From contig JABDHI010000012.1 in NCBI GenBank assembly GCA_013285655.1, forward strand, positions 1 to 55,356: a stretch of DNA of 55,356 nt. The letters are read 5' to 3'. The notes beneath the pieces are model-generated. The model was not told the DNA's origin and did no database searches. It saw only the letters and a program-made list of their open reading frames with translations. Source of the DNA: Bacteroidota bacterium (lineage in GTDB: Bacteria > Bacteroidota > Bacteroidia > JABEUT01). Shown here one piece after another: positions 8,216-29,054 of this stretch (position 1 is the first letter of the stretch; each line of letters begins with the position of its first letter). The translations under genes and the position numbers were made by a program.

Positions 8216-9259
8216 TTATTTTATAGAGATCAATGGTTCTCCCGGTTTAAGTTTACCCAGTAAGCCAATAGGTTCAATATGGTCAGATAAGCCTTCTTTT
8301 TTAAACAAGGCTTCAACTTCGTCCTTTGCTTCCGGTGTAACAGCAATTAATAATCCGCCACTGGTTTGCGGGTCACAAAGTATATCATGTTGTTTATCGG
8401 TAAGTGGTCCTATTGCATCGCCATAGCTGTCCCAGTTACGGTGTGTGCCGCCCGGTATTGCTTTCTGTGCAATATAGTCATCAAGCTCAGCAACTAATTT
8501 TATTTTATTGAAGTAAACAGTAGCATGTAATTTACTGCCCTCGCACATTTCTTTTAAGTGTCCTAATAAACCAAAGCCTGTAACATCGGTCATTGCAGTT
8601 ATGCCATCTATTTGTGCCAATTTCGCGCCAACCGAATTTAATTTCATCATATTGTCGGCAGCAAGGCCCTCATGTTCTTTCTTTAAAATGCCTTTTTTTT
8701 CTGCAGTTGTAAGTATACCTACTCCAACAGGTTTGGTAAGGTAAAGCAAACAGTTTTCTGAAGCGGTATCGTTTCGTTTTAAATACTTAAGGTCTAACAT
8801 ACCTGTAACGGCAAGGCCAAATACGGGTTCAGGACAATCAATACTATGGCCGCCTGCTAATGGTATTCCTATTTCAGCACAAATTTCGCGTGCACCTTCC
8901 ATAACCTGGTGTGCAGCTTCAATAGGCACTGTGTTAATTGGCCAGCCTAAAATAGCTATTGCCATTAAGGGTGTTCCGCCCATGGCATATACATCGCTTA
9001 TAGCATTGGCTGATGCTATTTTGCCAAACTTAAAAGCATCATCAACAATAGGCATAAAAAAATCGGTAGTGCTTATCACCCCGCGTCCGCTGCCAATATC
9101 ATACACCGCTGCATCATCTTTACTGGCATTGCCTACAATAAGATTTTTATTATGCAACGCAGGTTTAGCCGATTGTAAAATAGTATCTAATATTTTAGGC
9201 GAAATTTTACACCCGCATCCGGCACCATGACTATATTGTGTAAGACGTATCTTTTCCAT
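8216..9259 (-). CDS. selD: Selenide, water dikinase (selenophosphate synthetase), Cys type
   Basis: 347 residues, the normal length. SelD makes selenophosphate from selenide and ATP. The N-terminal active-site segment [12 protein letters not shown] gives Cys15 and Lys18, equivalent to E. coli Cys17 and Lys20; the residue is Cys, not selenocysteine. ATP/metal-binding motifs are [50 protein letters not shown] and DPQTSGGLL. Similarity to the enterobacterial enzyme is strong along the whole length. The matching user, tRNA 2-selenouridine synthase, is encoded at 41946-42959. No SelA or SelB is in the window, so a selenoprotein pathway is not indicated here. Confidence 0.97.
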
Positions 9260-9773: not shown

Positions 9774-10709
9774 TTACAAAGTGAAAGCCCTTGAAATAGA
9801 GAACCCTAATTTGAAAGCAGCATTACTCCATGAATCGGTAGTATATGGAATGATATTGTTTTCATTTATGGCAGAGGCGTTGCTCAGGTTAATTTCAAAT
9901 ACGTGTCCACCGGTCTCAATTTCATAGCCAATTGAAAATGCATTAGAATAACTGGGATTGTTGTTGGTACGGAAAGGAGAGATAATGTAAAAATAATCGA
10001 ACACAATAGAGGAGTGTTTGGTTAGCATAACTCTGCCTCCGCCACCTGCAAATGGAATGCCATTTTGATCGGTAGCGCCGTTATTAGGATTAACAGCGGA
10101 TAACACATAATTGCGATGACTGTATCCGGCAAATACTTCAGCTGATATACGATTACTAAATCTGCGATCTAATAATAACTGAGAAACATAAGATAAGCGG
10201 TCTGAAAAATGTTGTGCAGGCGACACAGCCTCAGCGTATAATATTGAATTGGCTTCAGGAGTTATTCCTGCATCTTCATAAAATGCTAAGGATACCGGCA
10301 TGCCAATGGTGTTTTGGGTAAGTATACGATACTTGCCGCTTATATCTATTAGCTGTTGTTGTTCACTTCGGCCTAAACTCAATTGCAGGTTCCTGGTAAC
10401 ACCAAATTCAAATGAAAAATAAATATCAGAAGCTACATCGAATCCGTACAGAGTTGGGAAGCCGCCGCCGCTGGTACCCATATTACCAAAGCGGTGTTCA
10501 ATTCTAAACACCATTACATTCGGGTCGACTGTTTTAGTTGTTTGTGCATTAATGATCCGTGTGTCTTTCCATGTAGAACCAAGTTGTGGTATAGCAACCT
10601 GACTTTTTTGTATAGAATCTTCAAGGGTAGCAAGTGTTTGGCTTGTTGCTGAAAAATAACTTGCGAATAAAATAAATGCGCTAAGGCACAATTTTTTTAG
10701 AGTCTTCAT
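9774..10709 (-). CDS. DUF5777 family beta-barrel protein, copy 1
   Basis: 311 residues with a Sec signal peptide (residues ~1-23, ending SATSQ). The mature protein is rich in amphipathic beta strands and ends in an aromatic-containing C-terminal strand (SISRAFTL), consistent with an outer-membrane barrel. Family landmarks are GSTWKDTRIINAQTTKT, VFRIEHRFGNMG, LQLSLGRS, VSLAFYEDAGITPE and GYEIETGGHVFEINLSNA. A second copy is at 16202-17152, with the same landmarks. It follows a cytochrome-like lipoprotein (10760-11161) by 50 bases, probably in one operon driven by the ECF-type promoter at 11308-11335. The function of DUF5777 is not established; the consistent neighbourhood of heme or redox lipoproteins suggests an envelope redox role. 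Confidence 0.88.
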   Translation of the reverse strand: MKTLKKLCLSAFILFASYFSATSQTLATLEDSIQKSQVAIPQLGSTWKDTRIINAQTTKTVDPNVMVFRIEHRFGNMGTSGGGFPTLYGFDVASDIYFSFEFGVTRNLQLSLGRSEQQQLIDISGKYRILTQNTIGMPVSLAFYEDAGITPEANSILYAEAVSPAQHFSDRLSYVSQLLLDRRFSNRISAEVFAGYSHRNYVLSAVNPNNGATDQNGIPFAGGGGRVMLTKHSSIVFDYFYIISPFRTNNNPSYSNAFSIGYEIETGGHVFEINLSNASAINENNIIPYTTDSWSNAAFKLGFSISRAFTL

Positions 10710-10759
10710 AATATAGTAGGATGGGGTTTTATAAGCTTTATCTAATTAAATTCTAATAT

Positions 10760-11161
10760 TTATTGTGGCGCACCTGCCAATAACCACGCTTTAAACTTAG
10801 CGCTGGTACACGCATCAAGCGGAAGCTCAGGCGCTATAGGCATTCTTTTTTCAATAAATATGTACCTGTAAAAGAAACTTTGTTCGCCACCTGTTACATA
10901 ACGGTTCATGGAAGCATAATTACTAAAATCGCCATGGTCAGATATTCCGGCGTGGCAGCTTGTATTAAAACTACCACAGTTAACATTAATAAGCAGTTGC
11001 ATACTGTTTGTATACGTTAGGTTGGCAGTATCACAACCGGTTGGTAAAGGCGCTGGCTGAGCGGCATTTTTTTCGCAGGAATTGACAGCCAAAATAAAAA
11101 GCACTACTATTATTGTAGTAGCTAGTTTAACAGAAAATAATCGGGATAATTGAAATTTCAT
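10760..11161 (-). CDS. Cytochrome-c-like lipoprotein with expanded C-x6-CH motif, copy 1
   Basis: 133 residues. The signal peptide ends in a lipobox-like NSC (residues ~27-29), followed by EKN. The mature region has the outline of small Bacteroidota heme lipoproteins: GCDTANLTY, then a Cys-rich site NCGSFNTSCHAG, then a C-terminal KAWLLAGAPQ that resembles the end of cytochrome-c domains. The usual CXXCH is replaced by C-x6-CH, so covalent heme binding is plausible but unproven. A paralogue with C-x5-CH lies at 15210-15617. It is the first gene after the minus-strand ECF-type promoter at 11308-11335 and precedes DUF5777 copy 1. Confidence 0.85.
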   Translation of the reverse strand: MKFQLSRLFSVKLATTIIVVLFILAVNSCEKNAAQPAPLPTGCDTANLTYTNSMQLLINVNCGSFNTSCHAGISDHGDFSNYASMNRYVTGGEQSFFYRYIFIEKRMPIAPELPLDACTSAKFKAWLLAGAPQ

Positions 11162-11307
11162 GGGGTTGTAATTGAATGTAATTGATTAATAATTAATTAC
11201 GGCACAAAGTTTAGAATTGCAAAATAGATTCTCTTGTAGTTTGTGAGTATATAATTGTATCATTTACAGATTTAGGTTTTACCTTTCGGTTGTACAGTAT
11301 ACAAGGT

Positions 11308-11335
11308 AGATGAAGAATTTTGGAAATAGTTGGGT
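11308..11335 (-). promoter_or_regulatory. ECF-type promoter copy 4 (minus strand, lipoprotein/DUF5777 operon)
   Basis: Read on the minus strand: ACCCAAC (11335-11329), 16 bases, CATCT (11312-11308). The same two boxes with 17-base spacing occur three times on the plus strand nearby. It lies 146 bases upstream of the ATG at 11161. ECF sigma factors characteristically use an AAC-containing -35 element, which fits. Confidence 0.7.
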
Positions 11336-11455
11336 CATGAGAACAATCATAGAATATTAAAGCAATGGGGCGAGTTGCAGATAAGGTAAAAAATCTGATA
11401 TTTGTATAAGTGAGTAAGGTTGATAACCCCAGGAAAGCCAATAATTTAGTCGGCT

Positions 11456-11484
11456 ACCCAACCTTTTAGGTTATAGAATCATCT
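11456..11484 (+). promoter_or_regulatory. ECF-type promoter copy 1 (sigma factor operon)
   Basis: ACCCAAC at 11456-11462, 17 bases, CATCT at 11480-11484; the sigma factor ATG begins 14 bases later at 11499. It is shared with three other sites in this region, so self-regulation of the sigma gene is likely. Confidence 0.75.
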
Positions 11485-11498
11485 TAATAAACGAGGCA

Positions 11499-12074
11499 AT
11501 GTCTCAAAAGATATCAGAGGAGGAATTAATAGATGGCTGCCTGTCGGGAACCTGGGCCTTTCAGCAGATGCTTTATAAGCAATATGCGTCCAAGATGCTG
11601 ACAGTTTGCATGAGGTATACGCATAGTAGGTTTGAGGCAGAAGATATATTACAAGAGGGATTTATACTGGTTTTTGAGAAGTTGGCGCAGTTTAAAAAAC
11701 AAGGTTCTTTTGAAGGTTGGATACGTAAGATAATGGTGAACAAAGCAATTGAGCATTACCGAAAATCGGCTGCAGTTTACCCGGTAATAGATGTGGCAGA
11801 TGTTGAAAATGTAATAAGCGTAGAAGATGTAACAAGCCAGATAAACGCAAATGAGCTTTTAAAAATGATACAAGAGCTGCCACCGATGTATAAAATGGTA
11901 TTTAACTTATATGCTTTTGAAGGAATGACCCATAAAGAGATAGCTGAGAAGTTGGGCATTGCTGAAGGAACATCAAAGTCGAACTTATCGGATGCACGTA
12001 CACTGTTGAAGAAGAAGATAACGAGAAACATTTTAATTGCAGAGCTTTACGATGAGCGAAAAGCTTACAAATAA
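11499..12074 (+). CDS. ECF-family RNA polymerase sigma-70 factor
   Basis: 191 residues, typical ECF length. Region 2 is visible in residues ~20-90 (ARYTHSRFEAEDILQEGF-like, with the DILQEGF signature and GSFEGWIRKIMVNKAIEHYRK). Region 4 is at ~125-175 (LPPMYKMVFNLYAFEGMTHKEIAEKLGIAEGTSKSNLSDAR), including the helix-turn-helix. The protein directs RNA polymerase to alternative promoters, usually under control of a membrane partner. The next gene overlaps it by 23 bases and encodes a single-membrane-span protein with a cytoplasmic N-terminus, the expected partner. Four copies of one ECF-like promoter around this gene suggest it activates itself and the surrounding redox genes. Confidence 0.96.
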   Translation: MSQKISEEELIDGCLSGTWAFQQMLYKQYASKMLTVCMRYTHSRFEAEDILQEGFILVFEKLAQFKKQGSFEGWIRKIMVNKAIEHYRKSAAVYPVIDVADVENVISVEDVTSQINANELLKMIQELPPMYKMVFNLYAFEGMTHKEIAEKLGIAEGTSKSNLSDARTLLKKKITRNILIAELYDERKAYK

Positions 12075-13584
12075 TAATATTGATGACATTTTCAGAAACT
12101 CCATTGACAATATGGAGACTGAACCCTCTGAGAGTTTTTGGATAAACGCTTCGGAAGATGCTTTGTTTAAAAGCAATCTTATAAAGAAGAGATCTATTAA
12201 CCGATGGAGGATAGTTGCCGCTGTTTTTAGCATAGCAGTTATGGGGCTTACTGCGTATATAATATATATGCAAAAGCAATTGAACGATGTTAAAAGTAAG
12301 CTGGTTGCAGCAGAACATGTTACTTATATTCAACCGGCGCCAGTAGCCAATTCAACCACTGTAGGTACCAGTGCTGCACCGGTTATTACAAAACAAGCTA
12401 CAAGCCAGGCTGAAGAAAGGTCGGCAAAGAAAGTAGTAAAGCAACAAGAGGTTAAGCATGAAATTGCTACTAATTCTAATACAAGCCTCAAGTCAGTGCA
12501 GCCTTTAGTATATGAAAAAAAGAAGCATAAAAAACATGATCACATTAATGCTTCAGCATCAACTGCTTTAAATTCTACTAATGTTTCAAGTACTGCGCAG
12601 CCCTTGGTATATGAAAGAAAAAGACACAAAAAGCATGAGCATGGAAATACTATAACAGCAAGTGCTGTGAATTCAAATAAGGTTGGTAACAATGGTACTG
12701 TTTATACTTCTACCAACGAGCCAATCGCTTCGAATGCAAGCACAACCGAAGTATCTGAAGGGCCTGAATTTATTAATGTGAATGGAAATAATACAATACC
12801 GCAGGCAAGTGCTTTGCCGCTTGCAATATCAAATAATATAGAGCCGGTGCAAAGCACTGTAAGTTCAGCGGCACGGAAAAATATTTTATCAAAACTTTCT
12901 GTATCACTCTTCTTTGAACCGTATATATCTGATGAGTTATTGGAGAACGAAGCAACTGATATTGTAACCGTAAATAATGTTTCTGCAAACGAAGAAGAGG
13001 CACATCCGTTTGTAGCAGGATTAAAAGTTGATTATAATATACTTAAGAATTTAAGTATTACTACCGGTTGTTTGTTTTATAGCTTTAACGTATCGGTTGC
13101 ACCAACTACTATATACGCCCAAAAACAACAAAATGGTGAAGTAGGATATTCTTTTCAAACAAGTATAGGTACAGTAAATTGCCCTTACGTTAAATCGCCA
13201 AAAGTGGGCGATGGTATGGTGGTTAGCGGGGAGGAGAAAGCAAGTTATATATGTATACCCATTCAACTCAAGTACAATTTTATAACCAATAGCAAATGGG
13301 GACTTTACCTAACCGGAGGAATAGAAGCCAATATAATAGCATTAAGGCAAATGGACATGCAATGGCGTGATTTTAATTGGGATGAAGGCAACGCAAAAGA
13401 AGGAATTGATAATTCGAAAAAAATATACACCTCTTATTATTTAGCTCCCGGTGTTAGGTATAACTTATACAAAGGCATTTCTATTTTCCTCGAACCTTCG
13501 TTACAAGGTTCCCCTATATTTTCAAAGGGAGCAAATACTTTACCATATGCAGGTATAGGTACAGGAATTACATATCATTTTTAA
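12052..13584 (+). CDS. Sigma-factor partner: one-TM protein with His/Lys-rich repeats and C-terminal beta-barrel
   Basis: I place the start at the ATG at 12052 (MSEKLTNN), inside the sigma gene; a TTG at 12037 is less likely. The protein is 510 residues. A short cytoplasmic part (~1-50, with IDDIFRNSIDNME and SESFW) is followed by one membrane helix (~52-72). Next is a low-complexity region with two repeats 33 residues apart (QPLVYEKKKHKKHDH and QPLVYERKRHKKHEH, residues ~150 and ~183). The C-terminal ~220 residues are a porin-like barrel (LKVDYNILKNLSITTGCLFY to GIGTGITYHF). The overlap with the sigma gene suggests an anti-sigma role. A single chain with an inner-membrane helix and an outer-membrane barrel is odd; the helix could also be a cleaved signal. 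Confidence 0.85.
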   Translation: MSEKLTNNNIDDIFRNSIDNMETEPSESFWINASEDALFKSNLIKKRSINRWRIVAAVFSIAVMGLTAYIIYMQKQLNDVKSKLVAAEHVTYIQPAPVANSTTVGTSAAPVITKQATSQAEERSAKKVVKQQEVKHEIATNSNTSLKSVQPLVYEKKKHKKHDHINASASTALNSTNVSSTAQPLVYERKRHKKHEHGNTITASAVNSNKVGNNGTVYTSTNEPIASNASTTEVSEGPEFINVNGNNTIPQASALPLAISNNIEPVQSTVSSAARKNILSKLSVSLFFEPYISDELLENEATDIVTVNNVSANEEEAHPFVAGLKVDYNILKNLSITTGCLFYSFNVSVAPTTIYAQKQQNGEVGYSFQTSIGTVNCPYVKSPKVGDGMVVSGEEKASYICIPIQLKYNFITNSKWGLYLTGGIEANIIALRQMDMQWRDFNWDEGNAKEGIDNSKKIYTSYYLAPGVRYNLYKGISIFLEPSLQGSPIFSKGANTLPYAGIGTGITYHF

Positions 13585-13603
13585 TCACTTAATATAATAT
13601 CGT

Positions 13604-13632
13604 ACCCAACCCTTTGGTGTATAAGTACATCT
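13604..13632 (+). promoter_or_regulatory. ECF-type promoter copy 2 (Rieske gene)
   Basis: ACCCAAC at 13604-13610, 17 bases, CATCT at 13628-13632, 40 bases before the Rieske ATG at 13673. Box sequences and spacing are identical to copy 1. Confidence 0.75.
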
Positions 13633-13672
13633 AATAAGTATAGAGGCATTAGTACCCTAATTATATTTTAAT

Positions 13673-14092
13673 ATGGACAGACGCGATTTTCTTCAGAAGT
13701 CAATTATTCTTTCATGTGGTATTGCAGGTGCATCAGCTTTTTTAGAAGCTTGTAAAAAAAATAATAATACTACCACTGCACCAACTGTAAATTTCACAAT
13801 TGATATCAGTTCATCACAATACAGTGCCTTACAACAAAATGGGGGATATGTGTATAACAGTGCAAACAACATTATAATTGCCCGCGATCATTCTGGGAAT
13901 TTTATTGCTTTATATGATGTTTGCCCTCATGCAGGTTGCACCATACAATTCGACGGTAAGTCCACATTCCCATGCCCTTGCCATGGCTCATTATTTGATG
14001 AAAATGGCAATGTAACGCAAGGACCCGCTACAAGTGGGGTAAAAAAATACAGTACTTCGCTTAAAGGCACCCAATTAAATGTATTCGGTTAG
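13673..14092 (+). CDS. Rieske [2Fe-2S] lipoprotein
   Basis: 139 residues. The N-terminus combines a twin-arginine motif (MDRRDFLQKS) with a lipobox-like LEAC (Cys27), suggesting Tat export as a folded cofactor protein and lipid anchoring. The Rieske centre is complete: CPHAGC (Cys and His of box 1) and CPCHGSLFD (Cys and His of box 2), with both extra Cys residues for the disulfide seen in high-potential Rieske proteins. It is a standalone small Rieske protein, not a bc1 subunit by context, since no cytochrome b gene is nearby. It should carry electrons at the outer face of the inner membrane or at the outer membrane. An ECF-type promoter directly precedes it. Confidence 0.95.
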   Translation: MDRRDFLQKSIILSCGIAGASAFLEACKKNNNTTTAPTVNFTIDISSSQYSALQQNGGYVYNSANNIIIARDHSGNFIALYDVCPHAGCTIQFDGKSTFPCPCHGSLFDENGNVTQGPATSGVKKYSTSLKGTQLNVFG

Positions 14093-14130
14093 TATTGATA
14101 ATCAGATAGTTAAATAATATTTTTAGCATA

Positions 14131-14159
14131 ACCCAACCATAAGGCATATTTCCTCATCT
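14131..14159 (+). promoter_or_regulatory. ECF-type promoter copy 3 (anchor V / YceI / DUF5777 operon)
   Basis: ACCCAAC at 14131-14137, 17 bases, CATCT at 14155-14159. The start codon at 14289 is 129 bases further. A possible sigma-A -7 box (TAAGTTTG, 14200-14207) lies between them, so the operon may have two promoters. Confidence 0.72.
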
Positions 14160-14288
14160 AATAATGTGGAATAGTTGATTATGAGGAGTTTTTAGTCAAT
14201 AAGTTTGGAAATTGAAGTAACATTATATAGTTTAGCTAACCCATTAATTAAAAATAACGTACCTGGCGTCAATTAAAAATTAAAAACT

Positions 14289-15149
14289 ATGAAAAAAGTA
14301 AAGCTACTTATTGGAATTGGAATCGCACTTTCTGCAATGATAATTACTGGGTTCTCTACAAGTAATAATCATAATGGAACCCGTCATGCATCAGGTATGG
14401 ATCAGTATACAGATTCTCCTCCGGACGGCGCTGGAGATTGCACTGGCTGCCACAGTGGTGGAAAAACAACCCCAACATTTACTTTAACAGCTTCACCTGC
14501 TTTAGGTGGTAGTAACAACCAATTTATACCAGGTACAAAATATACATTTACTCTTAAGTTAACAGGCTATTCATATTTTGGATTTGACCTTGAAATAATT
14601 AATGGACAAGCTTCAACTTCACTGGATGCAGGTACTCTTGGTGCAGGTACTTCAACCCAGAAAATTGCTAATAGTGGTGCCCCTACTAATATTACGCATA
14701 CCTCCAAAATCAATTCAACTACAGGTGGAACCTTTACCTGGACAGCTCCTTCAACAGGCAATGCTTATATATATGCAACTATAATGGGTGTTAATGGTGA
14801 TGGTAGCACAAGTGGCGATAAAATGGCTTCTCCTTATGAATTAACTCTTACACCTCAATCAACTGTTTCGGTACAAAATGTTGAGGAAGCAGGTAACTCT
14901 TTCGACGTATATCCTAATCCTATAAAGGATCATTTTAATATTAGTTATTCACTACAAAGTACTAAACAAGTTGAGATCAACTTGTATTCAATTGATGGTA
15001 GAAAAGTGGCAACACTTGCACCTTCTGTTGAACAGTCTGCCGGTGAGTATAATCAACGTTTCGAAATGCCTTCAGTTGCACGCGGTATATACCTTGTTCA
15101 AGTTGTTCAAGACGGACAATTTGCCTGCAAAAAGGTAGTAGTTCAATAA
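14289..15149 (+). CDS. T9SS-secreted protein with CXXCH heme motif and choice-of-anchor V-like domain
   Basis: 286 residues. After the signal peptide (~1-25), a short segment SPPDGAGDCTGCHSGG contains a canonical CTGCH c-type heme motif (residues ~50-54). The middle ~100 residues (YTFTLKLTG, FGFDLEIINGQ, HTSKINSTTGGTFTWTAP) match the choice-of-anchor V/reeler-like beta-sandwich often found with this motif. The C-terminus is a type A T9SS sorting domain (DVYPNPIKDHF, GRKVATL, ARGIYLVQV, ending KKVVVQ). So this should be a surface-exposed or secreted heme protein. It heads an operon with a cytochrome-like lipoprotein, YceI and DUF5777 genes. The heme is inferred from the motif alone. Confidence 0.9.
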   Translation: MKKVKLLIGIGIALSAMIITGFSTSNNHNGTRHASGMDQYTDSPPDGAGDCTGCHSGGKTTPTFTLTASPALGGSNNQFIPGTKYTFTLKLTGYSYFGFDLEIINGQASTSLDAGTLGAGTSTQKIANSGAPTNITHTSKINSTTGGTFTWTAPSTGNAYIYATIMGVNGDGSTSGDKMASPYELTLTPQSTVSVQNVEEAGNSFDVYPNPIKDHFNISYSLQSTKQVEINLYSIDGRKVATLAPSVEQSAGEYNQRFEMPSVARGIYLVQVVQDGQFACKKVVVQ

Positions 15150-15162
15150 TAAGTTCTATAGT

Positions 15163-15193
15163 ATGTAGCGTATAGGAAAACTATACGCTACAT
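15163..15193 (+). terminator. Intra-operon hairpin
   Basis: Perfect 13-bp stem (ATGTAGCGTATAG / CTATACGCTACAT) with loop GAAAA, followed by the T-rich TATTTTA. It lies between the T9SS heme protein and the downstream lipoprotein. It may end transcription partly or protect the mRNA end, lowering or raising expression of the downstream genes. Confidence 0.7.
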
Positions 15194-15209
15194 TATTTTA
15201 CAAATCTGT

Positions 15210-15617
15210 ATGAAGAATAAATTTTTGATTGGGGTTGCAATAGTGGGAGCTATTATGACAATTAATTCGTGTGACAGCGAAGAAAATGCACTTCCTGCTC
15301 CTATAACTCCTTCAAGTTGCGATACCAGTAAAATGACCTACTCAACAAACTCAGGTCAAATACAAGGCATTATTAATGCACAGTGTGCAACAACGCCAAG
15401 CTGTCATGGCGCGGGTGCCACTAAAGTAAGTGGTGACTTTTCTTCATGGACCGCACCTAAACTCCAACAGGCAATATCAGGCGGAACAGGCAGCACTATG
15501 TATCAATACCTTCAACCTACCTATCCTACACCAATGCCTAATGTTCCTCAACCAGGCTGGAGCGAATGCGATAGGTTGAAGCTAGACGCATGGCTTCAAG
15601 CAGGCGCCCCTCAATAG
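15210..15617 (+). CDS. Cytochrome-c-like lipoprotein with expanded C-x5-CH motif, copy 2
   Basis: 135 residues with a lipoprotein signal (lipobox-like NSC at ~19-21, then DSEEN). The mature part is parallel to copy 1 (10760-11161): SSCDTSKMTY, a Cys-His site QCATTPSCHGAG, GDFSSW, and the C-terminal LDAWLQAGAPQ. The site is C-x5-CH rather than CXXCH, so heme attachment would be atypical. It lies 19 bases upstream of the YceI gene and downstream of the hairpin at 15163-15193, in the operon headed by 14289. Function is likely electron transfer at the envelope, by analogy with Bacteroidota heme lipoproteins; a metal- or disulfide-based alternative cannot be excluded. Confidence 0.85.
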   Translation: MKNKFLIGVAIVGAIMTINSCDSEENALPAPITPSSCDTSKMTYSTNSGQIQGIINAQCATTPSCHGAGATKVSGDFSSWTAPKLQQAISGGTGSTMYQYLQPTYPTPMPNVPQPGWSECDRLKLDAWLQAGAPQ

Positions 15618-15635
15618 TAAACTCAAAATCTAAAT

Positions 15636-16187
15636 ATGAAAAAGAAATTAATTCTTACCGCAGCACTTTGTGCAACTATGTTTGGCTATGGATTCGGACA
15701 AATATATATGGCTGATTCTGCCCGTATATCTTTCTTCTCAAAAACCAGTGCTGAAGATATTGATGCGGCAAACACAGTTTGCAAACCTATTATGAGCGTT
15801 GCAACCGGTGAGTTTGACGTAAGCCTTATCAATACATCTTTTGATTTTCCAAAGCCTTTAATGAAGGAACACTTCAATGAAGATTATATGGAATCGGCTA
15901 AATTTCCAAAAACAGTATTTACCGGAAAAATTACCGGTTCGGTTGATTACTTAGAGGATGGAACTTATAACGTATCGGTAACCGGTACTATGGATATGCA
16001 CGGAGTTAAAAAACAAATTACCGTTCCGGGTACCATTACTGTAAAGAATGGAATATTATTTGTTTATGCAAAGTTCAACGTTAAAATTGCTGACTATAAT
16101 ATTAAATTACCTTCTTTCCTTAGCATGAATGTGGCAGATAATGTGGATGTAACTGTTAGGGCCACAATGAAACCTTATAAGAAATAG
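15636..16187 (+). CDS. YceI family protein
   Basis: 183 residues with a Sec signal peptide (cleavage after GFGQ, ~21). The mature protein shows YceI landmarks: ARISFFSKTSAEDIDA, ATGEFDVSLINTSFDFPKPLMKEHFNEDYMES, KFPKTVFTGKITG, and the C-terminal VTGTMDMHGVKKQITVPGTI. YceI proteins have an extended lipocalin fold and bind isoprenoid chains; structural work on family members found polyisoprenoid or quinone ligands. It should be periplasmic. Its place between a cytochrome-like lipoprotein and a DUF5777 barrel fits handling of a quinone-like molecule in an envelope redox system, which is inference. Confidence 0.94.
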   Translation: MKKKLILTAALCATMFGYGFGQIYMADSARISFFSKTSAEDIDAANTVCKPIMSVATGEFDVSLINTSFDFPKPLMKEHFNEDYMESAKFPKTVFTGKITGSVDYLEDGTYNVSVTGTMDMHGVKKQITVPGTITVKNGILFVYAKFNVKIADYNIKLPSFLSMNVADNVDVTVRATMKPYKK

Positions 16188-16201
16188 TAGATTTTAAAAT
16201 T

Positions 16202-17152
16202 ATGCAGTTAAACAAAGGCCTTTTATTAGGTGCAGTGTTATTGTGTGGAACCGCTTTTACTGCCAATAGCCAAAGCTTATTAGGAATCACAGATTCAATA
16301 CAAAAAACTACACAACCTCCTCCTCCATTGGAGTCGACATGGAAGGATACCAGGTTAATAAATGAGCAAACCACTAAAACTGCATCACCAGGGGTAATGG
16401 TATTTAGGGTCGATCACCGTTTTGGTAATATGGGCGCTGCAAGTAATGGTGGCATACATACACTTTATGGGTTTGATGTGGTTACCGATATTTATTTAGG
16501 TTTTGAATTTGGTATACTTAAAAACTTACAAGTGGCAGTTGGCCGTAGTAAAAGTTTGGAATTATTAGATGGGAGTATTAAATACAGGCCACTTACTCAA
16601 CAATCTATTGGTATGCCCATATCGCTTGCTATTTATGGCGATGCAGCAATAACACCTGAATTAAGCTCTGTGTTTTATAGCGGAGGTACTGATTCAACAG
16701 CTGCTTTGCAAGGCACCAGAGACAGGATGACCTACACTACAGAGCTATTAATTGACAGAAAATTTGGTGATGTTGGTTCACTTGAATTAATTGCAGGCTT
16801 TAATCACCGTAATTATGTGTTGGCGGTGCATAATCCTTCAAGTGGTGCGCGCGACTCCAACAACATTGCTTATATTGGTGCTGCAGGCAGAGTAAGACTT
16901 AGTAAACATGCTGCACTAGTATTCGAGTATAACTATATCATGTCGGCATACCGAATGAATAACACGGCTACACCATACTATAACGTCTTTTCTGTGGGAT
17001 ATGAAATTGAAACAGGCGGACACGTATTTGAAATTAACCTAAGCAATGCTGCTTATCTTGACATTAACAATATCATACCTAATTCTACAGATACATGGAG
17101 TAAAGGAGGATTCAAGCTTGGCTTCTGTATTTCCAGAGCATTTAATATTTAG
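16202..17152 (+). CDS. DUF5777 family beta-barrel protein, copy 2
   Basis: 316 residues, 14 bases after the YceI gene, last gene of the ECF-linked operon. The signal peptide ends near FTANSQ. The landmarks shared with copy 1 at 9774-10709 include DSIQK, ESTWKDTRLINEQTTKT, VFRVDHRFGNMG, NHRNYVLAV and YEIETGGHVFEINLSNAAY, and both end in a SRAF strand, so the two are paralogues. Amphipathic strands and the terminal aromatic pattern (CISRAFNI) suggest an outer-membrane barrel. The function is not established for the family. The paired lipoprotein-DUF5777 arrangement on both sides of the sigma factor suggests an ancient block duplication and inversion. Confidence 0.9.
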   Translation: MQLNKGLLLGAVLLCGTAFTANSQSLLGITDSIQKTTQPPPPLESTWKDTRLINEQTTKTASPGVMVFRVDHRFGNMGAASNGGIHTLYGFDVVTDIYLGFEFGILKNLQVAVGRSKSLELLDGSIKYRPLTQQSIGMPISLAIYGDAAITPELSSVFYSGGTDSTAALQGTRDRMTYTTELLIDRKFGDVGSLELIAGFNHRNYVLAVHNPSSGARDSNNIAYIGAAGRVRLSKHAALVFEYNYIMSAYRMNNTATPYYNVFSVGYEIETGGHVFEINLSNAAYLDINNIIPNSTDTWSKGGFKLGFCISRAFNI

Positions 17153-17171: not shown

Positions 17172-17200
17172 AAAGCCCTGCAGTTGTGCGGGGCTTTTTT
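17172..17200 (+). terminator. Rho-independent terminator after DUF5777 copy 2
   Basis: Stem AAAGCCCTGCA / TGCGGGGCTTT (one G-T pair), loop GTTG, followed by T6, 19 bases after the stop. It closes the redox operon. Confidence 0.92.
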
Positions 17201-17324
17201 ATTTTAATGTTAAGCGTAGCTAAACTCAGCTTGAAGGGTTATTGAAGCCAAGTCGTCTATAAAGAGATATTTGCAAGTGGGCAGAAGATACCTTTGTGTA
17301 ATTTTGAAGATAAACCCTATTCAA

Positions 17325-18590
17325 TTGCCTATAAGTAGATTACTCGAAAAGTGGGAAACCATTTTGATTTTATTAGTACTAGCCTCAGAGCTATCCACCG
17401 CCCAAACTAACACGGTTATTAAAACCATGAGAGAAGTAGCGGGTACCAATCGAGACAGTATGGTGATTGCTAAAAGAGAGCAGAAGATGCCTGATCAAAA
17501 AGATATAGGCGATATTTTCAGAAGCATCTTTAAAATAAAGACAAGTAATAATACTGATAGTCTTTTTGAAAGGCCAGGTAAATTATTCTTTTCTTTTGCT
17601 CCTGCAGGCGGGTACACACTTGAGGGTGGCCTTACAGGAGTAATGGTGGTAAATTCTTCTTTTTATACAAGCGATCCTAAAACCACCAACTTGTCCGTCT
17701 TTACTTTCGGAGGACAATACTCCCTCGACCATCAATTAATAGTGCCTATTATTAGTAATATCTGGACAAAGGATAATAAATATGATTTGCTTGGCGATTG
17801 GCGATATTATAATTACCCGTCTAAAACATTTGGATTGGGCTCAGACAATTCACTATCAAATTTTGATGTAGTTGATTATTCATATATAAAGATTTACCAG
17901 GAAGTACTCAGACATTTTAGTTCATATTATTATGTGGGTGCTGGTTATGACTTCGATTATCATTATGGCATCAGCACAACCACTGATGTAACGAATTTTC
18001 AATTATACAATGATGGGCTAAGAAGAACCACTTCATCGGGCCCTATAGTGCATTTAATGTACGACAACCGTACAAATAGCAATAACCCGAAGAAGTCATT
18101 ATACGCAAGTGTAATATTACGGGCAAACACTACCTTTTTGGGTAGCAACCAGAACTGGCAATACCTGCAGGTTGAAATAAGAAAGTATGTAATGATATCA
18201 CCACATGATGTACTTGCCTTTTGGAGTTGGAATGAATTTACAAATGGGAAAGCGCCTTATTTTGATCTGCCAAGTAATCAGTGGGATACTTATTCAAATA
18301 CGGGCAGAGGCTATATACAGGGCTTTTACAGAGGAACCAACCTTGTATATTTGGAGGCAGAATACCGATTTGGCATAACACACAATGGCCTGTTCGGCGG
18401 TGTAATATTTTCGAATGCGGGTAGTGCAAGCCAATGGCCATCTAATAGGTTTCAATATGTTGATCCGGCAGAGGGAGTTGGCCTTCGTATAAAGTTCAAC
18501 AAATATTCTGATGTTAACCTGTGTATTGATTATGCTATCGGGTTATTTGGGTCACGTGGTGTCTTCTTCAACTTAGGTGAAGTATTTTAG
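17325..18590 (+). CDS. Omp85/BamA-TamA-like outer membrane barrel protein, copy 1
   Basis: The frame is open from a TTG at 17271, but a promoter-like TACCTTTG (17289-17296) lies inside that stretch. I prefer the TTG at 17325, which gives a normal signal peptide (n-region SRLLEKWE, h-region TILILLVLA, end STAQ); the start is uncertain. The protein of ~420 residues has a short periplasmic N-terminus without recognisable POTRA domains. A bacterial-surface-antigen-type barrel follows: LYASVILRANTTFLGS, VLAFWSWNEFTNGKAPYFDLPS, GRGYIQGFYRG, NLVYLEAEYRF, GLFGGVIFSNAG, and a C-terminal strand ending FNLGEVF. A close paralogue follows at 18688. The role is unknown; an outer-membrane transport or assembly function would be family-level inference. 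Confidence 0.85.
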   Translation: MPISRLLEKWETILILLVLASELSTAQTNTVIKTMREVAGTNRDSMVIAKREQKMPDQKDIGDIFRSIFKIKTSNNTDSLFERPGKLFFSFAPAGGYTLEGGLTGVMVVNSSFYTSDPKTTNLSVFTFGGQYSLDHQLIVPIISNIWTKDNKYDLLGDWRYYNYPSKTFGLGSDNSLSNFDVVDYSYIKIYQEVLRHFSSYYYVGAGYDFDYHYGISTTTDVTNFQLYNDGLRRTTSSGPIVHLMYDNRTNSNNPKKSLYASVILRANTTFLGSNQNWQYLQVEIRKYVMISPHDVLAFWSWNEFTNGKAPYFDLPSNQWDTYSNTGRGYIQGFYRGTNLVYLEAEYRFGITHNGLFGGVIFSNAGSASQWPSNRFQYVDPAEGVGLRIKFNKYSDVNLCIDYAIGLFGSRGVFFNLGEVF

Positions 18591-18687
18591 TGATTTGAAT
18601 TAAAGCAAGTAAACCAATTTAATATCGTCGAATAAGTAAGGTACAAAGAAATGAAGTGGCGAACTATTAAATATAATCAGGGCAGTT

Positions 18688-19935
18688 TTGCGTAGAATAA
18701 GGTTTAAGAAAATTTTACTGTTTATCCTATTACAGGTAACCGTCTCCACGTGCACCCTTGCTCAATTACCTGCCTTTAATACAAAAGATACTTCCATTCA
18801 GGCAAAGAAGAACGATACCAATCGTTATTTGCAGAAGGATGCAATGGATATGATCACTAAAGTACTTAAGATAAAAAACAATGAAGAAGCAGATACTGAA
18901 AACCTAAGAGCGGGTAAATTATATAAATCCATTTTTCCCGCTTTGGGCTATTCCCTTTCTAATGGAGTAACTTTTATATTGGCTTCGAATTTCTCTTTCT
19001 ATACCAATAACCCGAAAACAACGAATTTATCGGTAATTACCTTAAACCCTTTATACTCTCTTAAGCAGCAAACCATTATACCATTACTAAGCAGTATATG
19101 GTTAAAAGATAACAAGATCAATATTCTGGGTGATTATCGCTTTTATCAATATCCTTCTTTTACATACGGACTGGGAGGCCGGCGTTTAATATCGCAAGCC
19201 GACTCGGTAGATTATTCGTACATAAAAATATCTCAGGAGGCACTCTATGCTATTTCGCATAACTTATATGGCGGCATAGGGTACGATTGGGATTATCATT
19301 ATAATATTAAAGAATACGGGCATGCCCGGCAGTATGAGGGATATACACATTCGGTAGGTGCAACATCCTCTTCAGGACTTGTGGCTCGTTTAAAATACGA
19401 TAGCCGAACCAATATTAATAACCCCAAAAATGCATTCTATGCCGATTTGGAATACCGTGATAATTTGACCAGCTTAGGGAGTTCATCTAACTGGCAGGAA
19501 ATAGAAGTGGAATTCAGGAAATACATAAGTCTTTCTAAGTATCCGAGCAACGTATTAGCCTTTTGGAGCTGGAATGAATTTACCTATGGGGGCAAAGTAC
19601 CGTATTTCGATCTTCCAAGCGTTGGATGGGATGAATATTCAAATACTGGCAGGGGCTTTATACAGGGCAGGTTCAGAGGTTCAGATATTATATACTTGGA
19701 GGGGGAGTATAGGTTCGATATTTTGCGGAATGGCTTGCTTGGCGGGGTGGTGTTTTGCAATGGCGAATCGGTGCCTAATTACCCTTCCGAAAGGTTTACT
19801 GCCATTCACGTAGGTAAAGGCATAGGATTGCGTATTAAAATGAATAAATATTCCAATACCAACCTCTGTATTGACTATGGTATTGGCGATCAAGGCTCCA
19901 GGGGCTTCTTTTTCAACGTTGGCGAAGTATTTTAG
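18688..19935 (+). CDS. Omp85/BamA-TamA-like outer membrane barrel protein, copy 2
   Basis: 415 residues, starting at a TTG (no in-frame ATG in range). It has a clear signal peptide (RRIRFKKILLFILLQ, end CTLAQ). It is a tandem paralogue of the preceding gene: both carry a short segment MDMITKVLKIKNNE / IFRSIFKIKTSNN, NNPKTTNLSV / DPKTTNLSVF, VLAFWSWNEFT, PYFDLPS, GRGFIQGRFRG, and end in FFNVGEVF. The size fits a surface-antigen barrel without POTRA repeats. A weak hairpin follows before secA. No operon partner is visible between the two copies (97-base gap). Substrate and function are not known. Confidence 0.87.
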   Translation: MRRIRFKKILLFILLQVTVSTCTLAQLPAFNTKDTSIQAKKNDTNRYLQKDAMDMITKVLKIKNNEEADTENLRAGKLYKSIFPALGYSLSNGVTFILASNFSFYTNNPKTTNLSVITLNPLYSLKQQTIIPLLSSIWLKDNKINILGDYRFYQYPSFTYGLGGRRLISQADSVDYSYIKISQEALYAISHNLYGGIGYDWDYHYNIKEYGHARQYEGYTHSVGATSSSGLVARLKYDSRTNINNPKNAFYADLEYRDNLTSLGSSSNWQEIEVEFRKYISLSKYPSNVLAFWSWNEFTYGGKVPYFDLPSVGWDEYSNTGRGFIQGRFRGSDIIYLEGEYRFDILRNGLLGGVVFCNGESVPNYPSERFTAIHVGKGIGLRIKMNKYSNTNLCIDYGIGDQGSRGFFFNVGEVF

Positions 19936-23490: not shown

Positions 23491-23521
23491 TTGAGGCAGT
23501 TGTATCTTGTTTGTACCTTTA
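23491..23521 (+). promoter_or_regulatory. Putative integrase promoter overlapping arm-like repeats
   Basis: TTG at 23491-23493, a 20-base spacer, then TACCTTTA (7 of 8 to TAnnTTTG) at 23514-23521, 21 bases before the integrase ATG at 23543. It overlaps the arm-like part-repeats, so integrase binding could repress its own gene (inference). Confidence 0.45.
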
Positions 23522-23542
23522 GGCAAGAAATACAAACTGAAA

Positions 23543-24679
23543 ATGATAAAAGTAAAGCTAAGAAACAAGGTAATTTTAGGGGGCAAGAAAAGTTTATACC
23601 TTGACTTCTACCCACCAATTTTACACCCTGATACACAAAAAAATACCCGTAGGGAAGTATTAGGCCTATACATATACGATAAGGCTAAAACACCACTACA
23701 AAAGAATCATAACAATGAAACCTTGTCCCTTGCTGAAAACATTAGGGCAAAAAGACAGATTGAAATTCAAAGTGGCCAATACGGATTTCTATCAACTCAA
23801 AAATACAATGGCGATTTTTTAGATTACTTTCAAGAATTAATTGAAAAGAGAAATAAGAATAGCCGAGGAGCTTGGCAATGTGCATTAGTTTATCTTAAAG
23901 AATTTACAGGAGGGAAAATACGCTTTTCCGACATTAACGTGAAATTTTGCAATGACTTTAAAACATATATTTTAAAGGCTCACCGATTAAGAAGCCGTAA
24001 ATTTTTAATATCACAAAATACTGCACAGTCATATTTTAATAGGTTAAAGGCTGCATTAAAACAAGCCTACAAGGAAGGATTAATAAAAACTGATATTAGT
24101 ATTCAGGTTGAACGTATTAAAGATGCTGAAACTGAAAGAAAATTTGTAACGATTGAAGAATTAAATAAACTAATCCGTACAGAATGCGGATTACCTTTAT
24201 TAAAACAGGCTGCTTTATTTTCAGCACTTACTGGATTAAGATTCTCGGATATTCAAAAATTACAATGGAAAGAGGTACGAAAAAATAAAGGCGCAAATGG
24301 TAAAACAAACTACACATTACATTTTACACAAAAGAAAACTAAAGGTGTTGAGGTATTACCAATATCACAACAGGCTTACGAATTACTAGGTGTAGAAGGT
24401 CAACAGGATGAGAAAGCTTTTGAAGGACTTCAATACTCAGCATTTGTCAATTTTCACTTGAAGCGTTGGATACTGGAGGCAGGGATAACTAAAAACATAA
24501 CCTTTCACTGTTTTAGACATACCTATGCCACCTTACAACTAAGTGCGGGGACTGACCTTTATACAGTAAGCAAAATGCTAGGTCACAGGGACATTAAGAC
24601 TACACAGATATATGCCAAAGTAATGGATAAAGCAAAACGAGAGGCTTCGGAAAGGATAGTGTTGGATTTTTCACAATAA
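23543..24679 (+). CDS. Site-specific tyrosine recombinase (integrase) of the element
   Basis: I choose the ATG at 23543 (MIKVKLRNKV); the frame extends to a TTG at 23507, which would overlap the promoter. This gives 378 residues. The order is an N-terminal arm-DNA-binding domain (~1-85, KSLYLDFYPPIL), a SAM-like core-binding domain (~95-195, YLKEFTGGKIRFSDI), and a catalytic domain. The catalytic residues are visible: Arg in SALTGLRFSDI, His-x-x-Arg in HCFRHTYAT, His in LGHRDIKTT and the nucleophile Tyr in QIYAKVM. It is the enzyme that integrated this element at the secA 3' end. It is distinct in sequence from the housekeeping Xer recombinase at 37335-38210. Confidence 0.95.
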   Translation: MIKVKLRNKVILGGKKSLYLDFYPPILHPDTQKNTRREVLGLYIYDKAKTPLQKNHNNETLSLAENIRAKRQIEIQSGQYGFLSTQKYNGDFLDYFQELIEKRNKNSRGAWQCALVYLKEFTGGKIRFSDINVKFCNDFKTYILKAHRLRSRKFLISQNTAQSYFNRLKAALKQAYKEGLIKTDISIQVERIKDAETERKFVTIEELNKLIRTECGLPLLKQAALFSALTGLRFSDIQKLQWKEVRKNKGANGKTNYTLHFTQKKTKGVEVLPISQQAYELLGVEGQQDEKAFEGLQYSAFVNFHLKRWILEAGITKNITFHCFRHTYATLQLSAGTDLYTVSKMLGHRDIKTTQIYAKVMDKAKREASERIVLDFSQ

Positions 24680-24711
24680 AAATATTTTGATACCATAGGA
24701 CAAATATTAAA

Positions 24712-24738
24712 TAAACAGTTTTAAGTCAAAACTGTTTA
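24712..24738 (+). terminator. Perfect inverted repeat after the integrase gene
   Basis: 11-bp arms TAAACAGTTTT / AAAACTGTTTA around AAGTC, 32 bases after the integrase stop. It could act as an intrinsic terminator (A+T-rich stem) or as an operator for the chimeric HTH-containing gene downstream. Confidence 0.55.
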
Positions 24739-24749
24739 TCTCGGAACAC

Positions 24750-24780
24750 TTGTTTTTACCATAAAAGCAGTATAGTTTTG
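24750..24780 (+). promoter_or_regulatory. Promoter of the HsdS-ATPase-HNH operon
   Basis: TTG at 24750-24752, a 20-base spacer, TAGTTTTG at 24773-24780 (matches TAnnTTTG), 45 bases before the TTG start at 24826. Confidence 0.6.
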
Positions 24781-24825
24781 CGATGTCCTTTAACCAATAG
24801 TAAATTTCTGTGAAGATGGTATCAA

Positions 24826-26307
24826 TTGGAAAAATTTGTGGTTACATCCTTATCGCTGGATGAATTTAGGGTTATTATTGAAGATTGCTTAAATAATATT
24901 CTCAAAGGGAGTAATTTTAACAGTTCTTTTTCTCAATTTGAACCTCCTGATAAACTCCTAACTGTTAAGGAAGCGGCAAGTTTTCTATCTATAACAGTAA
25001 TTGTAAGACCCAATCAGTTCGCTTATAATCCATCGCGTATAAATGTGGGCTCAATTGATTATTTACGAACTGATTTTGAAGTGGCAATAAGCCCTCTATA
25101 CATAGTATTTGAGTGCAAAAACAATTTAAGGAATGATTATTTATTGCGTTACTTGAAGAGCCCAATAGGAAATGACCAAATCAGAAATAAAACAAGAGGG
25201 GCAGTAAGAGAGAATCTTAGCTATAATAGTTTATTAGAAATTAATATACCAATTCCTTCAATTCAGGAACAAGGAAAAATTGCTAAACTTCTTACAAAGA
25301 TTGAGGAAATTATAACGAAAAGGGAAGAAAGTATTGGATTGTTGGATGAAATACTGATCAGTAGATTTAATAGGATGTTTGGTGACCCAATTAGAAATCA
25401 GAAGGGATTTAATAAAATGCAACTAGGTAATTTGGGGGATTGGAAAAGTGGGGGAACTCCTTCAAGAAGCAATGAGGAATATTTTACCGGTGATATACCT
25501 TGGTTGACTTCAGGAGAGTTACAAGATATATACATTAATGAAAGCAAGGAGAAAATAACTTTTGAGGCTGTTAAAAATTCTGGTGCAAAATTAATTGAAG
25601 AGGGAAGTCTATTACTAGGTATGTATGATACTGCCGCATTAAAGTCTTCAATTACTAAAGGTAAGGTTACTTGTAATCAAGCTATTGCTTATGCTAAATT
25701 GAATAGAAAGCTATGCAATACTATTTTTATCTACTTCTTAATTCAAATTGGAAAGGAGTATTTTAAAAGGCAACAAAGGGGTGCTCGTCAACAGAACATG
25801 AATATTTCCATGATAAAAAACATAGAAGTAATTCAACCACCCATTGAATTACAGGATGAATTTGGTGAAATTGTGAAGAAGGTAATAGAAATTAAGAATT
25901 CTCATTCTGCGAACATATACGAGATTAGAAAGCTTTATTCTGCAGTATCATCGTTAGTATTTAATGGTAGTATAGATTTGGGTAATATTCATATTGAGAA
26001 CGTAATTCCTAAGGCAATTGGTGGAACTAATAGTGAGCAGAATATTAAGATTAGATCTGAAAATACTAAGATAAATAATAGTCTTAACGATATTTTGAAC
26101 AATGTAGTTATAAAATATTTCAAAAATAAAGCATTTAGTTATGAGGAATTAGCGGAAAAAATACAAGCTCATTTGGAAGAGGAGGAATATCAATATGATA
26201 AAATACGACTTCATTTGTTTGCTTCTTTAAGAGGATTAGGAAATATTAAACTAGGGCAGTTCTATAATGAAGAGAAAAAAATAATTCAGTTGCAAGTTAT
26301 TAAATGA
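24826..26307 (+). CDS. Chimera: excisionase-like HTH N-terminus fused to truncated type I restriction specificity subunit (HsdS)
   Basis: 493 residues from a TTG; an in-frame stop at 24811 excludes anything longer. Residues 1-58 look like the start of a MerR/excisionase-type helix-turn-helix protein (LSLDEFRVIIEDCL, then LLTVKEAASFLSIT), but the second half of that domain is missing. From residue ~59 the sequence becomes HsdS: the end of the first target-recognition domain (RPNQFAYNPSRINVGSIDY, IVFECKNNLRNDYLLRYL, NIPIPSIQEQGKIAKLL), a spacer helix (~150-185), a full second recognition domain (~190-370, MFGDPIRNQKGF, GGTPSRSNEEYF, NIEVIQPPIELQ), and a ~115-residue C-terminal extension. So half of the first recognition domain is lost. 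No hsdM or hsdR is nearby. It overlaps the ATPase gene by 4 bases. Confidence 0.85.
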   Translation: MEKFVVTSLSLDEFRVIIEDCLNNILKGSNFNSSFSQFEPPDKLLTVKEAASFLSITVIVRPNQFAYNPSRINVGSIDYLRTDFEVAISPLYIVFECKNNLRNDYLLRYLKSPIGNDQIRNKTRGAVRENLSYNSLLEINIPIPSIQEQGKIAKLLTKIEEIITKREESIGLLDEILISRFNRMFGDPIRNQKGFNKMQLGNLGDWKSGGTPSRSNEEYFTGDIPWLTSGELQDIYINESKEKITFEAVKNSGAKLIEEGSLLLGMYDTAALKSSITKGKVTCNQAIAYAKLNRKLCNTIFIYFLIQIGKEYFKRQQRGARQQNMNISMIKNIEVIQPPIELQDEFGEIVKKVIEIKNSHSANIYEIRKLYSAVSSLVFNGSIDLGNIHIENVIPKAIGGTNSEQNIKIRSENTKINNSLNDILNNVVIKYFKNKAFSYEELAEKIQAHLEEEEYQYDKIRLHLFASLRGLGNIKLGQFYNEEKKIIQLQVIK

Positions 26308-28037: not shown

Positions 28038-29054
28038 ATGCTATATACTTATAAACATATCAATCATGATTTTGAAAAAATCCAGAAATACATAGAGCAT
28101 CTAGTATTAAATGTCTGGTGTAAACCTAATGGAAACTTTTTGATTAATAAACTTCATCCTGATTTTGTACCAATTGTAAATGGTGTAAACCCCCGGTATT
28201 TGAAAAACCCTATCAAGAATGTATATAGAATTTGTAATGGACTTTTGCCTGCTCAGCTATTAAAACTTAGAAATGGATTTTTGGCAAATAATTCAATTGA
28301 AGAGCTTTGTATGGGAATGGGAACACCATTGCTTTATTCTGAAATATATACTATTCGTCCAGCGCTGAAGAGGCAACTTGAATTGTTTTTTAAAAACCTT
28401 TATTCCAAAGTTCCCCAAATAATTGCATTTAAGAAAGTTTGTGGAGAGATTGATGATTATTACGATAAACTTGTGGATACAAATGAAAAGTGTCCTTTTT
28501 GTGGGATCAATGATATTTTGACACCTAAGCATTCAAAGAGAGATGCCCTTGACCACTATTTACCTAAGGATATTTACCCATTTAATTCAGTTAACCCTAA
28601 TAACTTAGCTCCGATTTGTAAGACATGTAATAGTTCATATAAAGGAACAAATAGTCCGATAAGAGATAATATTGGAGTGAGAAGGAAAGCATTCTACCCT
28701 TTTGCGAAAAAAGCAGTTAAACTAGAATTTAAAGCTAAATTTAACTGTACGAGTATCCTTAAAATGAAAAAGGAAGATGTTGAATTAAAAATCACAAACA
28801 GTAGATACAAGGAACAAATTGAAACATGGGATAGCTTATTTGGAATAAAAGAAAGGTATGCTATTAAATTGAGTAGTAAAGATGCGAGAGGGTGGCTTAA
28901 TACTATGCTAATTGATTTTAAGATTAACCCCAAAACAAAGTATAAATCGTTTGCCAAGAAGATGGAATATTACGAAAATAACCCGATGGAAGATAATAAT
29001 TTTCTAAGAGTTACATATTTTAATGCTTGTAAACAAATGGGGGTATTTAATTGA
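28038..29054 (+). CDS. HNH endonuclease, Septu PtuB-like effector
   Basis: 338 residues, starting on the base after the ATPase stop. The HNH core is at residues ~150-205: a first zinc pair in CPFCG (~152), the catalytic-type DHYLPKDIYP, an Asn in PNNLAPICKTCNSS (second zinc pair and CN). The rest is helical with basic patches and no other recognised domain. HNH proteins paired with an ABC-like ATPase act as nucleases released or activated by the ATPase in Septu-like systems, so this is probably the effector that cuts nucleic acid. The target is unknown. Being last in the operon and tightly spaced, it should be made in ratio with the ATPase. Confidence 0.85.
   Translation: MLYTYKHINHDFEKIQKYIEHLVLNVWCKPNGNFLINKLHPDFVPIVNGVNPRYLKNPIKNVYRICNGLLPAQLLKLRNGFLANNSIEELCMGMGTPLLYSEIYTIRPALKRQLELFFKNLYSKVPQIIAFKKVCGEIDDYYDKLVDTNEKCPFCGINDILTPKHSKRDALDHYLPKDIYPFNSVNPNNLAPICKTCNSSYKGTNSPIRDNIGVRRKAFYPFAKKAVKLEFKAKFNCTSILKMKKEDVELKITNSRYKEQIETWDSLFGIKERYAIKLSSKDARGWLNTMLIDFKINPKTKYKSFAKKMEYYENNPMEDNNFLRVTYFNACKQMGVFN

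Follow-up and report, generated by a model that had tools for sequence, protein, structure and literature searches.

Described systems and the DUF5777 locus

A monoheme cytochrome placed N-terminally on a barrel is the architecture of the iron oxidase Cyc2 (PMC8406198). In MtrCAB and MtoAB, a barrel and a cytochrome are likewise encoded together at the outer membrane, and Cbp2D of Cellvibrio japonicus is a cytochrome with an attached YceI-like domain; domains of this type bind polyisoprenoids, ubiquinone-8 among them, and the cytochrome delivers electrons to copper monooxygenases (PMC8981238). Here we describe a gene set that recalls these systems and is located on contig JABDHI010000012.1, contig 12 of the 2.69-Mb draft genome of a Bacteroidota bacterium (GCA_013285655.1; completeness 69%). 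The whole stretch of DNA that was analysed, 55,356 nucleotides in length, is referred to as the window. Its positions 9774–17152 encode two copies of DUF5777, a protein family of which no mention was found in the literature searched, along with small exported proteins carrying predicted redox centres. On balance we favour, with moderate confidence, the interpretation that DUF5777 and a monoheme cytochrome form a split functional analogue of Cyc2, which would move electrons between the quinone pool and some partner at the outer membrane.

The genes in question form two blocks, A and B, on opposite strands, with a central group between them. Block B, on the forward strand, consists of a predicted monoheme cytochrome c lipoprotein (copy B, 15210–15617; assigned by family alignment and profile matches), a YceI protein presumed to carry an isoprenoid or quinone (15636–16187; PF04264, 57.9 bits against a cut-off of 23.7) and an outer-membrane barrel of the DUF5777 family with 12 predicted strands (copy B, 16202–17152; PF19089, 233.8 bits, E = 2.3e-69). 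Block A, on the reverse strand, contains DUF5777 copy A (9774–10709; PF19089, 250.9 bits, E = 1.4e-74) and the corresponding predicted cytochrome c lipoprotein (copy A, 10760–11161), the family profile of which matches cytochromes c. Both DUF5777 copies exceed the gathering cut-off of PF19089 (23.1) as full domains. The central group, on the forward strand, comprises an extracytoplasmic function (ECF) sigma factor gene and the gene following it, a Rieske [2Fe-2S] protein, apparently a lipoprotein exported by twin-arginine translocation (13673–14092; PF00355, 55.3 bits, both Cys/His motifs present), and a choice-of-anchor V protein with a CTGCH motif and a sorting tail of the type IX secretion system (T9SS) (14289–15149; NF041895 and PF18962). 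All genes and families listed in a first-pass annotation of the sequence were recovered at their positions, and its view of them as an envelope redox module gained support from non-random neighbourhoods, natural gene fusions and quinol-oxidising modules in related loci.

Like Cyc2, the module combines one c-type heme site with one outer-membrane barrel, and six fusion proteins, considered below, share with Cyc2 the order of cytochrome followed by barrel. Unlike in Cyc2, the cytochrome and the barrel of the window are encoded by separate genes, and the cytochrome is a lipoprotein accompanied by YceI and Rieske partners. In addition, DUF5777 is predicted by AlphaFold2 to have 12 strands, whereas Cyc2 is a 16-strand porin, and the motif AXPXFAR[Q/K][T/Y], positioned upstream of the heme site in Cyc2, is absent from both window lipoproteins and from the fusions. 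The separate parts, the number of strands and the missing motif indicate that the module is not a Cyc2. The joint encoding of barrel and cytochrome at the outer membrane is also shared with MtrCAB and MtoAB, but the window module has neither a decaheme protein nor a 26-strand barrel, and displays one heme motif per protein as opposed to ten hemes. Cbp2D and Cbp2E resemble it in that YceI and a monoheme cytochrome c are paired for extracytoplasmic redox reactions (PMC8981238); however, those are secreted carbohydrate-binding proteins, whereas the window encodes three separate envelope proteins, one of them a barrel.

Genes linked to DUF5777 across Bacteroidota

DUF5777 loci were drawn from 296 sampled Bacteroidota genomes, 115 of which encode the family, from 40 relatives (38 positive) and from 80 named loci. 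Neighbourhood statistics were calculated for the 142 distinct loci that are flanked by 3.5 kb or more on each side, and the scan of the collection was performed with a 10-row alignment, an earlier alignment of 32 rows having been too diverse. A cytochrome lipoprotein, YceI or a Rieske protein is encoded within three genes of DUF5777 in 139 of the 142 loci. The monoheme cytochrome c lipoprotein is found at this distance in 103 loci, YceI, for which the first-pass annotation had proposed a survey of co-occurrence with DUF5777, in 99, and the Rieske protein in 19. Calculated per gene, the lipoprotein is encountered at a rate of 15.3% near DUF5777 versus 1.1% far from it; the respective rates are 11.9% versus 0.9% for YceI and 2.2% versus 0% for Rieske, and the neighbour families are enriched ∼14-fold near DUF5777. 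The commonest gene order is lipoprotein, YceI, DUF5777. In some loci the Rieske protein takes the place of the lipoprotein, and the constant theme therefore appears to be a small exported redox protein together with a barrel. Random neighbourhoods elsewhere, named beforehand as the outcome that would speak against a redox module, were thus not what the survey revealed. The only point in favour of a chance cluster of unrelated genes is that envelope genes are found everywhere in Bacteroidota; this explanation is refuted by linkage at such a frequency over a background of 0–1%, as well as by the existence of fusions, and we regard it as hardly credible.

Other genes were also observed in the vicinity of DUF5777. 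A small OB-fold (tRNA_anti-like) protein (for example, L032:972-1367) is encoded in 26 of the 99 loci with YceI and in none of the 43 loci without it. DOMON-like T9SS proteins are present in five YceI loci (for example, L025:634-1386); DOMON domains can bind heme b. The choice-of-anchor V proteins of these loci (L063, L071, L080, L051 and others) display, as do the lipoproteins discussed below, a variable spacing of the heme-like motif (CX2CH, CX3CH, CX4CH and CX5CH).

YceI is missing from 43 of the 142 loci, and a well-supported DUF5777 clade of 18 rows (98/89) is without it. NrfD is encoded in 10 of these 43 loci, as compared to none of the 99 loci with YceI. The NrfD loci further contain genes for 4Fe-4S, ethylbenzene-dehydrogenase-like and class I cytochrome proteins; locus L129 carries a six-heme protein. 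In locus L078, a DUF5777 relative belongs to an alternative complex III operon, which further encodes ActD, NrfD, a molybdopterin/Fe-S protein and a seven-heme protein. The mutual exclusion of YceI and NrfD suggests that YceI and NrfC/NrfD complexes may serve as alternative links to the quinone pool. Although one DUF5777 clade shares operons with alternative complex III and with NrfC/NrfD quinol modules, the window encodes none of the subunits of these complexes, and a search for ActD in the genome to which the window belongs (69% complete) gave no match. The earlier statement that no member of the module is a known complex subunit is valid for the window, even though a DUF5777 relative is encoded in the alternative complex III operon of L078.

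The predicted cytochrome, the barrel and their fusions

The window lipoproteins produced no Pfam match at the trusted level. The alignment of 50 of their relatives, from which row L190 was excluded for want of a heme motif, has a mean column identity of 25% and seven invariant columns, namely the lipobox Cys, a second Cys, a Cys-His pair, a Met-Pro pair and a Trp. When compared to solved structures, the family profile matched cytochrome c6 (E = 1.6e-6) and FoxE (E = 3.2e-6). Based on the invariant Cys, Cys-His and Met-Pro residues and on these profile matches, the two lipoproteins are predicted to be class I cytochromes c with Met as the second ligand, which upholds and extends their initial description as 'cytochrome-like'.

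The CX2CH motif is usual for class I cytochromes c but does not strictly define them, as CX3CH, CX4CH and CX15CH are also known. Neither of the window copies has the canonical spacing: a stretched CX6CH motif (CGSFNTSCH; 10952–10978, reverse strand) can be read from the sequence of lipoprotein A, and a CX5CH motif (CATTPSCH; 15384–15407, forward strand), corresponding to the invariant C59, C65 and H66 of the family alignment, is present in lipoprotein B. Among the 178 unique lipoproteins of the family encoded near DUF5777, the motif is CX2CH in 106, CX4CH in 49, CX6CH in 9, CX5CH in 4 and CX3CH in 3, while 5 proteins have two motifs and 2 have none. C-X(2-6)-CH is thus kept by 176 of the 178 proteins, but is found in only 6 of 724 unrelated small proteins. 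The distance between the heme His and Met-Pro is nearly constant over the spacing classes (medians of 36–42 residues), suggesting that the heme site is intact apart from the stretching of the motif. Both CX4CH and CX3CH have been accepted as heme motifs for other cytochromes (PMC10734462), and the c-type maturation system is flexible with respect to motif spacing, CX15CH requiring a dedicated apparatus (PMC7096707, PMC3601427). The host is probably able to mature c-type hemes, because its genome encodes a CcmC-like protein next to a CcmB-like one at a contig end, as well as ordinary class I cytochromes; a search of this 69% complete genome for ResB (System II) gave no match.

The unusual motifs also bring to mind TfcP of Myxococcus, a noncanonical cytochrome c that helps its partner to bind calcium and acts outside of electron transport (PMC8833165). 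By analogy, the lipoprotein might be a factor that stabilises or assembles the barrel with no part in electron transfer. We find this quite improbable, given that the substitution of a Rieske protein for the cytochrome would make little sense if redox activity were irrelevant and that quinol complexes are linked to DUF5777 loci.

AlphaFold2, run with 60 sequences, modelled DUF5777 as a confident 12-strand barrel (pLDDT 86.6, pTM 0.82). A sequence search of solved structures yielded no match to DUF5777; the solved folds nearest to the model belong to generic outer-membrane channels, namely FapF (Z 18.1, root mean square deviation 3.7, 218 residues) and KdgM (Z 17.9, root mean square deviation 2.0, 167 residues), followed by COG4313 and NanC, with FadL-type hydrophobic channels at Z of about 13. 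A metal site composed of the invariant H72 and H274 was considered and dropped, as strand alternation would place both residues on the hydrophobic membrane-facing side of their strands, near opposite ends.

Six Bacteroidota proteins were found to begin with a monoheme cytochrome c domain (CX4CH), which is followed by a DUF5777 barrel in the same chain. One was encountered in locus L159 and five (L280 to L284) were retrieved by directed search; the DUF5777 domain was confirmed with Pfam in three of them. Only fusions of the barrel to the cytochrome were seen, and none to YceI. The fusion of partners that are otherwise encoded side by side is the best evidence from sequence that they would work jointly. 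It also bears on the possibility of lipid or isoprenoid transport, whereby YceI would shuttle an isoprenoid across the periplasm and DUF5777 would pass it across the outer membrane, the cytochrome or Rieske protein only sensing or setting the redox state. Polyisoprenoids are indeed bound by YceI relatives (PMC8981238), and the folds that match the DUF5777 model include those of FadL-type hydrophobic channels. Nevertheless, such transport is improbable: a redox partner is kept in almost all loci whereas YceI is dispensed with in 43, the barrel is fused to the cytochrome but never to YceI, and the loci with NrfC/NrfD or alternative complex III point to electrons.

In two loci (L280:666-6450 and L281:485-6137) the fusion gene lies beside genes for MbnP, a MauG-type diheme peroxidase and a molybdopterin oxidoreductase, and in L280 it is the last gene of the run. 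An operon of this kind would also suit a module that donates electrons to secreted oxidative enzymes, such as copper monooxygenases or other extracellular oxidases, with the barrel merely letting a small reductant out. YceI-cytochrome c proteins play this role in Cellvibrio (PMC8981238), and many enzymes are secreted via T9SS in Bacteroidota, but the genes that recur near DUF5777 include none recognised as encoding a monooxygenase, and we consider the donation of electrons to such enzymes unlikely.

In the split analogue of Cyc2 that we favour, the cytochrome would dock at the periplasmic mouth of the DUF5777 barrel, and a small redox molecule would enter the barrel and exchange electrons with the heme there. 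YceI with a bound isoprenoid quinone, or the Rieske protein, would connect the unit to the quinone pool on the periplasmic side, this part being taken in the related clade by NrfC/NrfD or alternative complex III. The choice-of-anchor V protein may act as a heme partner on the surface side. Outward movement of electrons appears likelier, because the linked complexes oxidise quinol. The first-pass annotation had envisaged a continuous route from the inner membrane to the cell surface; such a route would be hypothetical: one heme and a 12-strand barrel alone cannot bridge the outer membrane.

Several points weigh against the Cyc2-like interpretation. A single heme is too little to span the membrane, so that the model depends on a small mediator, and heme loading, complex formation and electron transfer are all deduced from sequence and predicted structure. 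KdgM/FapF-like barrel folds are generic, so that the modelled fold by itself would not point to any function, and YceI proteins may bind other lipids. Our literature search gave no experimental precedent for CX5CH or CX6CH. The AlphaFold model of the lipoprotein, built without heme, shows no recognisable cytochrome fold; Foldseek and VIA searches with this model returned nothing useful, an outcome that is expected without heme and is no evidence against a cytochrome. Finally, acidic residues following the lipobox Cys constitute the Bacteroidota surface export signal, or lipoprotein export signal (LES) (PMC5080379), and at least two such residues are present in 76% of the family lipoproteins versus 32%. 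In the window, copy B (CDSEEN, read from the lipobox Cys) fits the signal, whereas copy A (CEKNAA) does not. These residues hint at surface export, which would fit badly with the fusions, where the cytochrome domain precedes strand 1 and should therefore face the periplasm.

Regulation, origin of the two blocks and flanking genes

The ECF sigma factor (11499–12074, forward strand; PF04542 and PF08281) is followed by a gene (12052–13584, forward strand) for a protein of 510 residues composed of an N-terminal segment, a predicted transmembrane helix near residue 54, a linker and a C-terminal barrel (PF13505 on residues 314–510). The domain layout and the neighbouring ECF sigma gene are as described for Dma anti-sigma factors (PMC13088901), and the product is thus a putative Dma-like anti-sigma factor, its inhibition of the sigma factor being suggested by position and layout. 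ECF sigma genes are enriched upstream of DUF5777 on the same strand (27 of 834 genes versus 2 of 662), and in most of 26 loci the gene after the sigma gene encodes a protein of ∼410–600 residues that is built in this way, its transmembrane helix lying between an N-terminal segment and a barrel at the C-terminus. This enrichment and the recurrence of a Dma-like next gene argue that the pair is part of the redox module, a point not made in the first-pass annotation, which had not singled out the second gene. Unlike Dma1 and Dma2, which are regulators of vesiculation, the window pair accompanies a set of redox genes; the sigma factor and the envelope-spanning anti-sigma factor would switch this set on in response to the state of the outer membrane. 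In four loci, a sigma gene is followed by one for a 299-aa protein; these pairs resemble FecR/TonB systems and probably have nothing to do with the DUF5777 module.

More tentatively, with a likelihood that we would place somewhat short of even, DUF5777 may represent a class of outer-membrane electron-exchange systems that extends across the phylum Bacteroidota and has so far gone undescribed. In such systems, a small barrel with a split or fused monoheme cytochrome c, tolerant of stretched heme motifs (CX3CH to CX6CH), would be linked to the quinone carrier YceI or, alternatively, to NrfC/NrfD or alternative complex III, many of the YceI loci being controlled by an outer-membrane-sensing anti-sigma factor. 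If confirmed, a domain of unknown function would gain an outer-membrane electron-exchange role in a phylum that abounds in soils, waters and sediments, further spacings would join the known heme-attachment motifs, and the Dma-type sigma/anti-sigma pair would acquire a second kind of regulon.

The barrels of blocks A and B are 56% identical and the lipoproteins 38%. In the tree, both barrels fall into a single genus clade (100/100), where A groups with G304, G305 and G301, and B with G303 and G296. The two blocks therefore appear to result from a duplication within the genus. The locus of G305, a member of the A clade, retains the order lipoprotein, YceI, DUF5777, and block A of the window has thus most likely lost YceI. 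In the congener G304, block A and the sigma gene are divergent, as in the window. Of the duplication plus inversion proposed at the outset, the first part holds; the second would account for the opposite strands, which are seen here and in one congener. In G304, a truncated DUF5777-B (L060:288-683) is found close to a contig end on the strand opposite to its own lipoprotein, a state that may reflect rearrangement or misassembly between inverted A and B copies.

A 13-pair hairpin (15163–15193, forward strand) is located between the choice-of-anchor V and lipoprotein B genes, and a terminator-like hairpin (17172–17197, forward strand) at the end of the operon, both assigned by consensus match only. 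Two tandem genes for Omp85-related barrels (17271–19935) lie immediately 3' of the module. Further downstream, positions 23507–29054 encode an integrase, a type I specificity-like subunit, a PtuA-like ATPase (PADLOC E = 1.8e-55) and an HNH protein matching the PDC-M01B/PtuB profiles, a Septu-like defence pair on what is likely a mobile insert. The window also contains genes for an AIR-synthase-family protein (8216–9259), which we take to resemble selenophosphate synthase, and for a rhodanese protein (41946–42959), presumably similar to 2-selenouridine synthase.

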